Positions 8,547-15,870 of a stretch of DNA of 20,349 nucleotides are shown in pieces. Source of the stretch: a virus; IMG/VR virus record IMGVR_UViG_3300027734_000385, positions 1 through 20,349 of that record. One strand, written 5' to 3'. The number at the start of each line of letters is the position of its first letter. Within the stretch, counting starts at the first letter, position 1. A program made the translations under genes and the position numbers. The notes below the pieces were generated by a model. It was not told where the DNA came from. It was given only the letters and a program-made list of their open reading frames with translations, and ran no database searches.

Positions 8547-8780
8547 ATGGAATTTCAACCAATGTTCAACTTCATCGGTGGAGCGATCCTGGTCGCCGTT
8601 GGCTGGTGGTGCAAAGAAATATGGGACTCGGTCAAGGCATTGAAGAATGACATCAAGGCCATCGAGATTGATCTGCCAAAGAACTACGTCAGCAAAGCAG
8701 ACATTGAGAGCCGCCTGGACAAGATTGACGCGACATTGGAGCGCATCTTTGACAAGCTGGAAAACAAGGCAGACAAGTGA
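8547..8780 (+). CDS. Small membrane-anchored coiled-coil protein
   Basis: The 77-residue protein has one likely membrane segment near residues 7-23 (MFNFIGGAILVAVGWWC) followed by a charged, heptad-like helix (KALKNDIKAIE, then IESRLDKIDATLERIFDKLE). It opens the lysis cassette: GGAG (8536-8539) lies 7 bases before the ATG, and its stop overlaps the next gene start (GTGA, 8777-8780). Single-spanning proteins with this outline occur next to holins in phages and may be holin-like, antiholin-like or part of a spanin-type complex. The role cannot be assigned from sequence, since there is no lipobox or second membrane segment. Confidence 0.75.
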   Translation: MEFQPMFNFIGGAILVAVGWWCKEIWDSVKALKNDIKAIEIDLPKNYVSKADIESRLDKIDATLERIFDKLENKADK

Positions 8781-8944
8781 TTGATCAGGTGGTCTCAGCA
8801 GAAAGTCCCTGGCCTAACACTGAGACAAAGACAGTTTTAGTTTGTCGGATTCCTAAACGAGAAGAGGACAAAAAGATGGGTGCAAACGAATTCACTGACA
8901 AAGATGGACGCATCTGCCGTTGGGTAGTTGTGAACGCAAAGTAA
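8777..8944 (+). CDS. Small unknown protein, 55 residues, GTG start
   Basis: This frame starts at GTG 8777, overlapping the stop of the gene before (GTGA), and ends at TAA 8942-8944, overlapping the next ATG by one base. It reads MIDQVVSAESPWPNTETKT at the start and KMGANEFTDKDGRICRWVVV near the end. The tight junctions on both sides and the absence of stop codons support a real gene. The second half (KDGRICRWVVVNAK) could be a small beta hairpin. There is no membrane segment or metal-binding motif. A shorter version starting at ATG 8876 would lack the coupling. I do not recognise the family. Confidence 0.65.
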   Translation: MIDQVVSAESPWPNTETKTVLVCRIPKREEDKKMGANEFTDKDGRICRWVVVNAK

Positions 8945-9081
8945 TGGACCCCATAACGGCTTTTATGGCGGCACAAGCTGCTGTTGCTGGAATAAAAAAG
9001 CCATTGCTCTTGGTAAAGACATCCACGGCCTATACAAAGAATTCAGCGGTTTTTATCAAGCAGCGGATACAGTTCACCTAG
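8944..9081 (+). CDS. Short zero-frame product of the frameshift locus, 45 residues
   Basis: Without slippage, ribosomes would release a 45-residue peptide that shares its first 19 residues with the long product and ends with IKQRIQFT. The unique part is basic and short and has no recognisable domain. If the frameshift is programmed, this peptide would be the more abundant product; if the locus is a simple mutation, it is junk. Confidence 0.4.
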   Translation: MDPITAFMAAQAAVAGIKKPLLLVKTSTAYTKNSAVFIKQRIQFT

Positions 9082-9431
9082 CAAGCAGCAAAGCCAGGAT
9101 TGCGAGCATAGGAAAGACAGATGCACAAATCAGTTCTCAGGCTCTACAGATTGCAATGGCATCTAAAGCATTGCGGGAACATGAGAAGGAACTGAAGGAC
9201 ATTCTCTTTTATTCGGGGAATGCCCAGGTTTGGGAAGAGATGATGGCAGAGCGCACCAGGATGATCAAGGAGCGCAACACGCTAGAGAGAGAAGAAGCGG
9301 AGCGCAAACAAAAGGACAAGGAAGTGAAAGTTGCAATCATTATGAACACACTCTGGATTTCTGGTGCATCAGCTATCGTTGTTCCGTTACTGAGTATTAC
9401 GGTTCACGTTATAACGAACAGGGGTTTTTGA
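8944..9431 (+). CDS. Membrane coiled-coil protein made by -1 frameshift (or broken by a lost A)
   Basis: Reading starts at ATG 8944 (overlapping the preceding TAA) with MDPITAFMAAQAAVAGIKK. In that frame a TAG at 9079-9081 ends a 45-residue product. At 8994-9000 lies A_AAA_AAG in the correct phase for a -1 slip; from 9000 the -1 frame is open to TGA 9429-9431. The joined 162-residue protein continues AIALGKDIHGLYKEF, has a long charged helix (EHEKELKDILFYSGNAQVWE, then ERTRMIKERNTLERE) and a C-terminal membrane segment (SGASAIVVPLLSITVHVI). This restored outline, an MDPI start with helix and C-terminal membrane anchor, resembles a family I know from tailed phages of aquatic bacteria, function unknown. 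Either programmed frameshifting or a one-base deletion explains the split. An ATG at 9156 in the -1 frame has no good ribosome site, so it probably is not the true start. Confidence 0.75.
8994..9000 (+). promoter_or_regulatory. Candidate -1 ribosomal frameshift site A_AAA_AAG
   Basis: The heptamer has the X_XXY_YYZ form and is in phase with the zero frame (codons ATA, AAA, AAG). It is the same slippery sequence as in E. coli dnaX. I found no strong stem-loop in the next 30-40 bases (only GCCA...TGGT with a 7-base loop) and no good Shine-Dalgarno-like stimulator 8-14 bases upstream, so efficiency would be modest unless a longer-range structure exists. Confidence 0.5.
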
Positions 9432-9432
9432 T

Positions 9433-9780
9433 ATGAGCGAAGAGAAAATCCAAGCAATGGAAACAAAAAGCGCCTTGGTTGAGAAAATCACATTTGCTTT
9501 GTTGCCGCTATTGTTTTCGTGCGTGGTTTATCTCATGTCGGCTCTGTCTAACCTGTCCCACGAAGTCACTATTCTCAATAGCAAAATAAGCTTGGTGGTG
9601 ACCTCTGACAACAAGCAAGCAAGCAACACGGGCGCTGAGTTGGCAAGGGAAAAGTTACGCCAAGACTTGGAAAAAGAAATCCAAAAAAACAGGGATGACA
9701 TTCAAGTCAACCGTCTGCACATTGCCATTTTGGAAGACAGGGCCGGGATGAAAACCACGTTTAAAAAGGAAGATAAATGA
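9433..9780 (+). CDS. Single-span coiled-coil membrane protein, i-spanin-like candidate
   Basis: The 115-residue protein has a short polar N-terminus, one membrane segment at about residues 18-38 (EKITFALLPLLFSCVVYLM), and then a long helical, heptad-like region with many Lys/Glu (AELAREKLRQDLEKEIQKNR). This outline (short cytoplasmic end, one span, periplasmic coiled coil) matches inner-membrane spanins of Rz type, but no outer-membrane lipoprotein partner is evident nearby, so a spanin call is only a candidate. It starts 1 base after the stop of the frameshift gene and overlaps the holin-type gene by four bases (ATGA 9777-9780). Confidence 0.75.
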   Translation: MSEEKIQAMETKSALVEKITFALLPLLFSCVVYLMSALSNLSHEVTILNSKISLVVTSDNKQASNTGAELAREKLRQDLEKEIQKNRDDIQVNRLHIAILEDRAGMKTTFKKEDK

Positions 9781-10289
9781 TTCCAATCATCGGCGCACTA
9801 CTCAGCACGTTAGCTGAAAGCGGTTTAGGACTGCTATCCAGCGCTATCCAGGCCAAGGGTAAGGAGGTGGTCGAAAACACGCTAGGCGTGAAGATTCCCG
9901 ACAATCCAACTCCCGCTGATGTTGAGCGCTTGCGTGAGTTGCAGTATCAGCACGAAGAGCGCCTGATTGAATTGGGTATTGAGAAGGCCAAGTTAGAGAT
10001 GGCCGAGTTGGAACTGCTGGCAAGGGCGGCACAGTCTGATGCGGAGAACGTTACAGACCGTTGGCAGGCAGACATGAACTCTGATTCATGGCTCTCAAAG
10101 AACATTCGGCCTATGAGCCTTATAGCCATATTTATGGGCTATTTCCTGTTTGCCATGATGAGCGCCTACGGCCTCAACGCCAACGAGTCCTATGTGACCC
10201 TGCTGGGTAACTGGGGAATGCTAATCATGGGCGCTTACTTTGGTGGCAGAACGGTAGAGAAGCTGGCAGAAATGAGGAGTTCAAAATGA
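9777..10289 (+). CDS. Holin, 3TM gene-transfer-release type
   Basis: The 170-residue protein has an N-terminal hydrophobic segment (IIGALLSTLAESGLGLL, residues 4-20), a long charged amphipathic helix (residues 45-95, ADVERLRELQYQHEERLIEL), and two C-terminal membrane segments (about 113-133, MSLIAIFMGYFLFAMMSAY; about 140-157, LLGNWGMLIMGAYFGG). The SWLSKNIRPMSLIAI motif and FGGRTVEK after the last span fit the 3TM holin family associated with release of gene-transfer agents and phages. It should form inner-membrane holes letting the endolysin reach the cell wall. It overlaps the endolysin gene by four bases (ATGA 10286-10289), fitting paired expression. Confidence 0.85.
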   Translation: MIPIIGALLSTLAESGLGLLSSAIQAKGKEVVENTLGVKIPDNPTPADVERLRELQYQHEERLIELGIEKAKLEMAELELLARAAQSDAENVTDRWQADMNSDSWLSKNIRPMSLIAIFMGYFLFAMMSAYGLNANESYVTLLGNWGMLIMGAYFGGRTVEKLAEMRSSK

Positions 10290-10624
10290 GCCTAAGTCAA
10301 GAGCAGGCAGCTTTCCTGTTGGATATGTGCAAGCTGATCCAGCACGCCACAGAACAGGGTTTTATGGTCACTGGTGGCGAGTTAGCCCGTACACCGGAGC
10401 AGCAGGCCATCTACGTTAAGACAGGTCGGTCTAAGACCATGAACTCTATCCACCTAAAGCGGTGCGCGATGGACTTAAACTTCTTCAAGGATGGAAAAAT
10501 AATCTGGGACAAAGCTATCCTGGCTCCGATTGGAGCCTACTGGGAAAGCCTGTACCCAAAGAACCGCTGGGGCGGTAACTTCAGATCGCTGGTGGATTGC
10601 CCACACTTTGAACGAAACATATGA
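10286..10624 (+). CDS. M15 family peptidase endolysin (L-Ala-D-Glu type)
   Basis: The 112-residue protein is a compact M15-type zinc peptidase, the endolysin type that cuts peptidoglycan stem peptides. Zinc ligands are visible in order: His56 in SIHLKRCAMDLNFF, Asp63 in the same segment, and His107 in DCPHFER. The nearby Asp104 is a candidate catalytic residue, and Arg35 in TGGELARTPEQQ also fits the family. There is no signal peptide, membrane anchor or wall-binding domain, so it depends on the overlapping holin gene for release. Length matches other short phage M15 enzymes. Its stop overlaps the next start (ATGA 10621-10624). The cleaved bond is a family-based inference. Confidence 0.9.
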   Translation: MSLSQEQAAFLLDMCKLIQHATEQGFMVTGGELARTPEQQAIYVKTGRSKTMNSIHLKRCAMDLNFFKDGKIIWDKAILAPIGAYWESLYPKNRWGGNFRSLVDCPHFERNI

Positions 10625-14166: not shown

Positions 14167-15870
14167 ATGTCTAAAGGCGGCGGCAGCACAACTTCAACAA
14201 CATCCATTGACCCTGATCTGAAGAAGGCTTATCTAGCCAACATCGGACAGGCTCAGAGCGTGGCTGGTGCATTACCAGTACGGCAATTTGCAGGGTTCAA
14301 CCCGCTGTACACGGCGGGTGAAGAGCAACTGATAAATACAGGACTTAATGGCCCAGGTATTCAGTCAGTTGACCAGGCTGCATATCAAACTGCTCAAGCT
14401 GGAGGCTACCAACCTCAGATGGTTGGAGGAATTAGCGGTGGACCGGCGGCAATGGCTGGTGCAACTGGTTACCAAGCATCTAATTTTGGTGGAGCGCAAA
14501 CAGGACCAGCATCAATGGCCGGTGCAATGGGCTATCAGGCAGCTAATTTTGGTGGAGCGCAAACTGGACCGGCAGCACTTGCACGTTCACAAGGTTATCA
14601 GGCAGCTAATTTTGCTGGAGCGCAAACAGGCCCAGCAGCATTAGCTGGCGCAATGGGTTATGGTGCAAGTGACGTTAATGCGGCGCAGGCAAACATGGGT
14701 GACATTGGGCGCTACATGAACCCATACTCGCAAAACGTCACTCAAAATGCTTTGTCTGATTTAGAAAAACAGCGTCAAAAATCCTTGCTTCAAATTTCAC
14801 AGCAGGCCGGTGCTGCAAAAGCATTTGGTGGATCGCGCCAAGGAGTTGCAGAGGCACAAACCAACATTGGATATGGGACTGAGGCTGGCAATTTATCGTC
14901 AAAATTAAATGAGCAGGCTTACAACAATGCTATGGCTGCGCAGCAGCAAGACCTTGCACGCCAACAGCAAGCTGCAATGCAGAATGCTGCGCAACGTACA
15001 TCTGCCTCACAGTTTGGCGCTGGTGCAGCAAACCAAGCTGCATTGGTAAATGCCGCTGCTAAAAATGCAATGGCTCAATTTAATACTGGCAATTTGCAGC
15101 AAGCCGGTTTGAGTAATGCAGCATCACAAAATGCTGCCTCACAGTTTGGCGCTGGTGCAGCGAACCAGGCTGCACTAACTAATGCCGCTGCTCAAAATGC
15201 AATGCAACAGTTTAATACTGGAAATTTGCAGCAAGCCGGTTTGAGTAATGCAGCATCACAAAATGCAGCTTCACAATTTGGCGCTGGTGCAGCGAACCAG
15301 GCTGCACTAACTAATGCCGCTGCTCAAAACGCAATGGCTCAATTCAATGTTGGTAACCTCCAGCAAGCCGGTTTGACTAACATGGCCGCACGAAATGCAG
15401 CATCACAGTTTGGCGCTGGCGCACAAAACCAGGCTCAGTTAACTAATGCTGCCTCTATAAATGCAATGAATCAATACAATGCGGGACTCGCGCAGCAGTC
15501 TGCACTGGCTAACCAAAACATTGGGCTTGCTGGCGCTCAGTTTAGGCTTGGCGCTGCAAACCAGTTGGGTAATCTTGGAACTCAGCAGCAGGGTCTGCGA
15601 ATGAGTGGTGCGCAAGCAGCAATGCAAGCTGGAAGTGCGCGTCAGCAGTTGGAGCAGGCTCAGATGGATGCAATGCGCAACATCGGTATGGAGAAACTGG
15701 GGATTTCATCTGGCGCTCTTTCCGGTCAGCTACCCAACCTTGGCATGACTCAGACGCAACCGTACTACCGTAACCAGGTTGGTGGTGCTTTGGGTGGTGC
15801 TGCTGCTGGTTACCAGTTTGGTGGACCAATTGGCGCTGGTATCGGCGGTCTGCTTGGATACTTTGGATAA
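14167..15870 (+). CDS. Repeat-rich internal virion / DNA-ejection-type protein
   Basis: A 567-residue Ala/Gln/Gly/Asn-rich protein with a perfect ribosome site (AAGGAG 14155-14160, 6 bases upstream). Residues 92-168 hold units of 21 residues (GYQAANFGGAQTGPAALAGA-like). Residues 178-225 carry a segment I know from other phage proteins (IGRYMNPYSQNVTQNALSDL, then AKAFGGSRQGV). From about 280 to 477 it has an 11-residue helical repeat organised into 44-residue super-units (ASQFGAGAANQ, AALVNAAAKNA, MAQFNTGNLQQ, AGLSNAASQNA). Hendecads favour right-handed coiled coils. The C-terminus (GGALGGAAAGYQFGGPIGAG) is glycine-rich and could insert into membranes. This mix fits a protein ejected with DNA into the host envelope, by analogy to T7-like inner core proteins. 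Confidence 0.75.
   Translation: MSKGGGSTTSTTSIDPDLKKAYLANIGQAQSVAGALPVRQFAGFNPLYTAGEEQLINTGLNGPGIQSVDQAAYQTAQAGGYQPQMVGGISGGPAAMAGATGYQASNFGGAQTGPASMAGAMGYQAANFGGAQTGPAALARSQGYQAANFAGAQTGPAALAGAMGYGASDVNAAQANMGDIGRYMNPYSQNVTQNALSDLEKQRQKSLLQISQQAGAAKAFGGSRQGVAEAQTNIGYGTEAGNLSSKLNEQAYNNAMAAQQQDLARQQQAAMQNAAQRTSASQFGAGAANQAALVNAAAKNAMAQFNTGNLQQAGLSNAASQNAASQFGAGAANQAALTNAAAQNAMQQFNTGNLQQAGLSNAASQNAASQFGAGAANQAALTNAAAQNAMAQFNVGNLQQAGLTNMAARNAASQFGAGAQNQAQLTNAASINAMNQYNAGLAQQSALANQNIGLAGAQFRLGAANQLGNLGTQQQGLRMSGAQAAMQAGSARQQLEQAQMDAMRNIGMEKLGISSGALSGQLPNLGMTQTQPYYRNQVGGALGGAAAGYQFGGPIGAGIGGLLGYFG
14437..14664 (+). repeat. 63-bp tandem repeat array (21-residue units)
   Basis: Units beginning at codons for Gly101, Gly122, Gly143 and Gly164 of the ejection-type protein recur every 63 bases, with a partial unit upstream. 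Near-identical DNA in places (for example ggtggagcgcaaac) suggests fairly recent duplication. Confidence 0.8.
15004..15531 (+). repeat. 132-bp tandem repeat array (44-residue, 4 x 11 units)
   Basis: Four consecutive copies begin at 15004, 15136, 15268 and 15400, exactly 132 bases apart, each starting with codons for Ala-Ser-Gln-Phe-Gly-Ala-Gly-Ala. Copies two and three are nearly identical; the fourth is diverged. Each copy divides into four 11-residue helical subunits. Confidence 0.88.

Follow-up and report, generated by a model that had tools for sequence, protein, structure and literature searches.

What does a phage make from a membrane protein gene that is split, beside the lysis genes, at exactly a sequence on which ribosomes can slip? 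The gene in question lies at positions 8944 to 9431 of the virus record IMGVR_UViG_3300027734_000385; the window is this whole stretch of 20,349 bases, which carries head, tail, and lysis genes, and all features given below are on its plus strand. Comparison with related sequences leads us to conclude that the split gene is very probably a case of programmed -1 ribosomal frameshifting. The membrane protein of this lysis gene set appears to be made only through a -1 slip at a fixed, conserved site. The locus has an in-phase heptamer of the X_XXY_YYZ form, site and split are conserved (the exception being the lineage of the loci L090 and L093), both halves are selected as one protein, and a predicted stem 5 nucleotides (nt) past the heptamer would supply the downstream structure expected of a programmed -1 site.

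Layout of the split gene and sample of relatives

The zero-frame open reading frame (ORF) runs from the ATG at 8944 to the TAG at 9079–9081 (8944–9081, 45 amino acids) and encodes the N-terminus common to both products and, beyond the slip site, a tail without constraint. The heptamer A_AAA_AAG (8994–9000) is read in the zero frame as the codons ATA AAA AAG, in a phase that fits a -1 slip. From 9000 the -1 frame stays open until 9431 (143 amino acids and a stop codon at 9429–9431) and encodes the remainder of the protein, with a hydrophobic helix of membrane type in its C-terminal part; the first ATG of this frame, at 9156, comes only after 52 codons. A -1 slip would join 19 and 143 residues into a product of 162. 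An earlier sequence-only reading of the window had described this arrangement, and we confirmed the zero-frame stop, the in-phase heptamer, the open -1 frame, the 52 codons before its first ATG, and the length of the joined protein.

The first relatives were collected with the -1 part as the query, with no selection on the slip site, and we retained the best 80 of 132 matches, whose contigs span 53 metagenome identifiers. One of them (L054) starts 2 bases before the G of the heptamer, which leaves 79 informative loci. After further scans the set comprised 119 distinct sequences, window included; part of the later loci were gathered with a pattern that demands AAAAAG and leaves the third base of the isoleucine codon free (at least 119 matches). 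We labelled as split the 96 sequences with the motif ATAAAAAAGC and inspected all the remaining 23: 17 were classed as continuous by script and two more on inspection (L223, L224), two are odd (L090, L093), and two are incomplete (L054, L227). A further 14 fetched loci lack the core motif. Eleven of these end short of it and are split at the same site (over the piece available, six match one of the 96 exactly and five do not), and three (L294, L295, L297) are continuous. The clade carrying the split gene consists of uncultivated phages known from metagenomes.

Conservation of the slippery site

The sequence-only reading had proposed to align relatives at the nucleotide level and to ask whether the A run is six long with the split retained. 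This is what we observed in 79/79 of the loci gathered without regard to the site: each has exactly six A and retains the split. The codons of the site are invariant among the 96 split sequences (ATA for isoleucine, AAA for lysine, and AAG, each 96/96), even though nucleotide identity in their downstream part goes down to 67% (median 82%). Elsewhere in the split genes, ATA accounts for 218 of 1,285 isoleucine codons and AAA for 419 of 1,169 lysine codons. The glycine codon just before the site and the alanine codon just after it each occur in all four forms. In the continuous relatives the isoleucine codon is ATT, ATC, or ATA, the last in 3/21.

We also searched a viral collection for the continuous peptide [A/G]GIKKA[I/M/V]ALGKD and obtained 19 stretches, just two of which (L090 and L093) come from the split clade. 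An A run longer than six was found neither in the 96 split sequences, which are defined by a motif with six A, nor in this continuous-frame search.

One protein in two frames

Purifying selection changes frame at the slip site. The measure used is the ratio of nonsynonymous to synonymous polymorphism (pN/pS). Over 15 codons before the site, compared in 67 distinct sequences, the zero frame has a ratio of 0.085, against 5.6 for the -1 frame. Over 24 codons after it (84 distinct sequences) the -1 frame is the constrained one, at 0.054, and the zero frame reaches 1.86. Of the 95 sequences that contain the upstream stop of the -1 frame, 92 have no ATG, GTG, or TTG in that frame from there to the site (the ninety-sixth, L178, ends before this stop). 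One protein in two frames, with no upstream start for the second in 92/95, requires a change of frame during expression.

The zero-frame stop is found 27 codons past the site in 69/96 sequences and 2 codons past it in 27/96, with eight changes on the tree, and its variable position indicates that the tail of the short product has no conservation. The short product looks expendable, selection acting on the long one. These results bear on the proposal, in the sequence-only reading, of a dnaX-type -1 slip that yields a minor long membrane protein near a holin and an endolysin. Conservation strongly supports the slip and the long membrane product, whose frame is under selection; the qualifier 'minor' fares less well, given the unconstrained tail of the short product.

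The joined protein matches the family phrog_32327 with an expectation value (E) of 3.7e-9, residues 1–137 aligning with positions 2–130 of 152, and the -1 part alone matches it at 0.0046. This family is annotated as a phage protein of unknown function, as are the other two families returned in a scan of PHROG with the joined protein up to E 1 (phrog_2990 and phrog_35801). The same scan gave no match to a profile of the tail assembly chaperone family. An AlphaFold model of a continuous relative (L225) is all-helical and of low confidence (predicted local distance difference test, 65). Foldseek matched it to ten structures in a viral library at E 0.001 or better, all of them uncharacterised or unnamed, and no function follows from the model.

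Origin of the split

In a tree of 107 distinct proteins, built from few columns and with many unresolved forks, 85 split sequences together with L054, L090, and L093 are on one branch (98% support in the Shimodaira–Hasegawa-like approximate likelihood ratio test), apart from 19 continuous sequences. As far as the sequences allow this history to be reconstructed, the split is the outcome of one gain, followed by one loss in the L090/L093 lineage. Outside the clade, the frame is continuous in 19 of the 119 distinct sequences and in the three loci cited above. The continuous relatives have 161–165 residues, close to the length of the joined protein, and the 19 are 56–67% identical to that of the window.

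Named phages also encode continuous full-length members of phrog_32327, identified by profile search in ctjtQ328, ctYwJ313, and Roseobacter phage CRP-4. Searches of named phages gave no match to the -1 part at E 0.01, six weak matches to the joined protein (E 0.05 or worse), and one match to the continuous relative L088 (E 0.003). In bacterial genomes, none of 67 pattern matches is a relative according to tblastn. In three loci with a continuous gene (L088, L092, L097), inspection by eye revealed a second protein with a similar start (MDPLTLFALANGAVSA..KAG..LYKDIK) after it, with a TAATG overlap; the two are possibly tandem paralogues.

A predicted stem downstream of the site

Consensus folding of 20 sequences predicts a stem that starts 5 nt past the heptamer (9006–9013 paired with 9056–9064), with one bulge and a loop of 42 nt. 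The spacer, taken from the alignment, covers 9001–9005 and begins with C. The 5' arm of this putative stimulator, supported by the consensus folding and by pairing counts, is GCUCUUGG (9006–9013), and the 3' arm is UCAAG C AGC (9056–9064), C9061 being bulged. Stimulating structures are described as generally beginning 5–8 nt past the heptamer, and A_AAA_AAG accompanied by stimulators as one of the three most efficient heptamers in Escherichia coli (PMC4066793). Spacers of 5–9 nt are described as usual and favourable, and a 3' C, CC above all, as favouring the shift (PMC5009743).

All eight pairs of the stem are present in 91/96 split sequences. Across 82 distinct rows, 98.3% of the cells in the stem columns pair, a share that falls to 23–69% if the partner is shifted by 1–3 columns. 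The covariation score of the stem, the percentage paired, and the number of cells changed on both sides each exceed all of 500 shuffles. The predicted probability of the stem is above 0.5 in 91/96 split sequences, with a mean of 0.91 versus 0.206 when codons are shuffled within the gene while preserving the protein, and is above 0.5 in 3/21 continuous relatives, L222 among them. The sequence-only reading, which saw no strong stimulator, thus has to be revised, since a conserved stimulator-like stem occupies 9006–9013/9056–9064. A scan for pseudoknot helices turned up a single weak candidate, in which the loop would pair with bases some 105 nt downstream.

The most informative pair is 9008–9062, which is C-G in 50, U-A in 43, and C-C in 3 of the 96 sequences; the mixed combinations C-A and U-G do not occur. 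No other two distant sites have mutual information as high (0.99), and the pair changes state 12 times on a tree built from codons outside the stem. Weaker linkage also occurs at sites beside the 3' arm (9053, 9065). Haplotype linkage in place of pairing is countered in part: the covarying pair exceeds the sites between the arms, yet those near the 3' arm are partly linked.

A number of observations weigh against a programmed frameshift. Two of five stem measures are unremarkable, namely the pairs changed on both sides (reached by 59/500 shuffles) and the further pair types (500/500). A tree-aware test of 9008–9062 gives four well-supported independent contrasts, all in agreement, with p 0.125 (11 contrasts when all branches are counted). 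The folding energy of the region as a whole does not stand out (mean z -0.47). The stem is absent in five of the 96 split sequences (L106, L107, L140, L206, L211); conversely, all eight pairs occur in the continuous L222, and the continuous L088 has seven and folds well. Pairing without a split in these two indicates that the stem partly follows from the protein. AGGA, GGAG, or GAGG within 20 nt upstream of the site is absent in 91/95 sequences, which leaves these without a Shine-Dalgarno-like stimulator. Lastly, L090 and L093 (3300013014_000081 and 3300027798_002563) are nested in the split clade and are continuous at the site. Reading these two by eye, we found the ATG to be out of frame and a TTG, overlapping the stop of the upstream gene, to be in frame. 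A weak TTG start may possibly replace the frameshift as a brake in this lineage, which would fit a clade that avoids a continuous frame behind a strong start; with two sequences from one lineage, this has the weight of an anecdote.

Expression of the split gene and the junction with the next gene

Under programmed frameshifting, ribosomes would start at the ATG at 8944, arrive at A_AAA_AAG, and probably pause before the stem 5 nt downstream. A share of them would slip back by one base and continue in the -1 frame, giving the 162-residue protein with its C-terminal membrane-type helix. The others would terminate early, at a length of some 20 to 46 residues (the window's product has 45), leaving a peptide whose tail has no conservation. 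The purpose would be to limit how much membrane protein is made and, probably, also how many ribosomes flow into the overlapping start of the next gene, mostly that of a holin.

The arrangement of this junction is well conserved. The stop of the -1 frame overlaps the next ATG in 86/92 split loci (TRATG in 78, ATGA in 8), and a Shine-Dalgarno-like motif lies within the 16 nt before that ATG in 87/92 (AGGGG in 66, AGAGG in 19, two others). In the window this motif is AGGGG at 9420–9424, within the last codons (NRGF) of the -1 frame. The next gene starts with MIP, the type of the window's holin, in 65 of the 92 loci, with MEW or MDW in 18, with MSEEK in 6, and with MFDIL in 3. The MEW/MDW type resembles, by eye, a ctYwJ313 protein annotated as a holin; its PHROG match (for L011) is phrog_1544, of unknown function. 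Where enough sequence is available (74 split loci), a homologue of the window's holin is present in 56 and one of its M15 protein in 62. The window itself is arranged differently: the ATG of an MSEEK gene comes one base past the stop of the split gene, and this gene separates the split gene from the holin.

These observations suggest that the slip controls how much membrane protein is made and, via coupling, helps to set how strongly the following gene, in most loci a holin, is translated. The sequence-only reading had spoken of a possible timing device, and the overlap of the stop with the next start would give this idea a concrete route. Since the -1 stop overlaps the next start in 86/92 loci and the last codons hold the Shine-Dalgarno-like sequence of that gene, one can go further and propose that the share of slipping ribosomes meters lysis, fixing both membrane protein dose and ribosome flow into the holin, and thereby lysis time. 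A frame-breaking change of single origin would then have been kept for this use. We regard this proposal as tentative, possible but short of probable.

Two side observations concern this junction. The C-terminal NRGF is encoded by codons that contain AGGGG or AGAGG, and its conservation may partly serve the RNA and not the protein. MIP and MEW/MDW genes alternate after the split gene with the stop-start overlap retained, as if the next gene had been swapped and the junction kept.

Alternative explanations

The alternative that survives best is that the slip is corrective only: a frame-breaking change would have been fixed by chance and tolerated, slippage rescuing enough protein. The apparently useless short product and the single origin of the split are both compatible with it, and 'corrective' frameshifting is a recognised class (PMC5009743). 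Against it, the codons of the heptamer and the stem are maintained, and the two clade members among the 19 continuous stretches, L090 and L093, differ in yet another way. Insertions and deletions in A runs are common. That so few continuous forms exist in the clade despite this, together with the maintained heptamer and stem, speaks for a benefit of the split and not for its mere tolerance, and we hold the purely corrective account to be unlikely.

Transcriptional slippage would produce the long protein by ordinary translation, RNA polymerase adding an A in the run of six. The run is conserved, and one extra A in the transcript would indeed join the frames. However, all 79 informative loci have a run of exactly six, short of the about 8–9 or more A that we took as the mark of such a site, and the stem 5 nt downstream would be left unexplained. 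The transcriptional slippage sites cited in PMC3711429 are runs of over 7 A; slippage at nine A is described for a large share of genomes, while shorter runs may slip in some bacteria (PMC1088944). We consider this mechanism very improbable here.

Translation of the -1 frame from a start of its own is less plausible still. An upstream ATG, GTG, or TTG in that frame exists in 3/95 sequences, and the absence of one in the other 92 refutes the idea there unless rare start codons serve. Before the site, the -1 frame is not selected as protein (pN/pS 5.6), and with a start at its internal ATG the 52 conserved codons ahead of that ATG would go untranslated. A mutation, assembly error, or pseudogene, the caveat raised in the sequence-only reading because an A lost from a run of seven would create the same heptamer, is refuted for the clade by the six A in every informative locus, by 96 distinct split sequences, the first 80 loci alone coming from 53 metagenome identifiers, and by strong purifying selection on both halves.

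Relation to known systems

The mechanism is already known from dnaX and insertion sequence (IS) elements; the gene is new, and the origin of its split is unusually clear. E. coli dnaX and the IS elements IS911/IS3 are described as likewise having an in-phase A_AAA_AAG and a downstream stem (PMC3711429, PMC4066793). The split gene differs from them in lacking an internal Shine-Dalgarno stimulator in 91/95 sequences, in its apparently useless short product, in its 42-nt loop, and in being a different gene. Phage tail assembly chaperones, such as lambda G/GT, are described as having a -1 frameshift that their gene family has conserved (PMC5009743); here, in contrast, the gene lies beside lysis genes and belongs to another protein family. 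In the RNA phage MS2, too, frameshifting is reported to be tied to the expression of the lysis gene (PMC10885494). In MS2, however, the shifted ribosomes terminate early, where the lysis gene starts, while those of the split gene would make a protein and then end at the next start codon, mostly that of a holin. Corrective frameshifting has in common with our case a useless product of non-shifting ribosomes, but the cases described are mostly mitochondrial (PMC5009743), and the split gene has a conserved heptamer and stem across a clade of DNA phages.

Annotated frameshifts in phages are chiefly those of tail assembly chaperones: among the joined genes reported for SEA-PHAGES, these make up 2,397 of 2,476, and the other 79 are hypothetical; the same source names lysins among the genes known to have a frameshift (PMC10885494), so frameshifting near lysis functions has precedent. 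We found no report of a frameshift in this split gene in the open-access literature on frameshifting with holins, spanins, and lysis genes. The split gene belongs to phrog_32327 over residues 1–137, and the members of this family that we saw outside the clade are continuous, unlike those of the split clade. The states before and after the emergence of a programmed frameshift are thus both available, which makes its origin, the recruitment of its stimulator, and its effect on lysis testable. The case also suggests that gene prediction would miss the joined protein: a plain ORF scan of the window lists only a 91-residue piece from 9156.

Neighbouring genes in the window

Upstream of the split gene is a small gene of 55 amino acids (8777–8944; ...SPWPNT...GANEF...). 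It ends in TAA, overlapping the split gene's start codon as TAATG, and has a homologue at 79/91 eligible split loci. Downstream, the MSEEK gene (9433–9780) encodes a 115-amino-acid protein with a hydrophobic stretch followed by a charged part. It stands between the split gene and the holin in the lineage of the window and has a homologue at just 4/74 eligible split loci. The holin (9777–10289) matches phrog_3427 (E 5.9e-14), and the endolysin (10286–10624), of the peptidase M15 type, matches PF13539 of Pfam (E 5.9e-7) and phrog_465 (E 1.3e-16). The capsid protein of the window shares 64% identity with its counterpart in an uncultivated Manatee Spring phage and 51% with the one in Sinorhizobium phage phiM5. 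Finally, positions 14167–15870 encode a protein with many internal repeats, with a unit of the NAASQNAASQFGAGAANQAAL type, which has no PHROG match at E 0.001.
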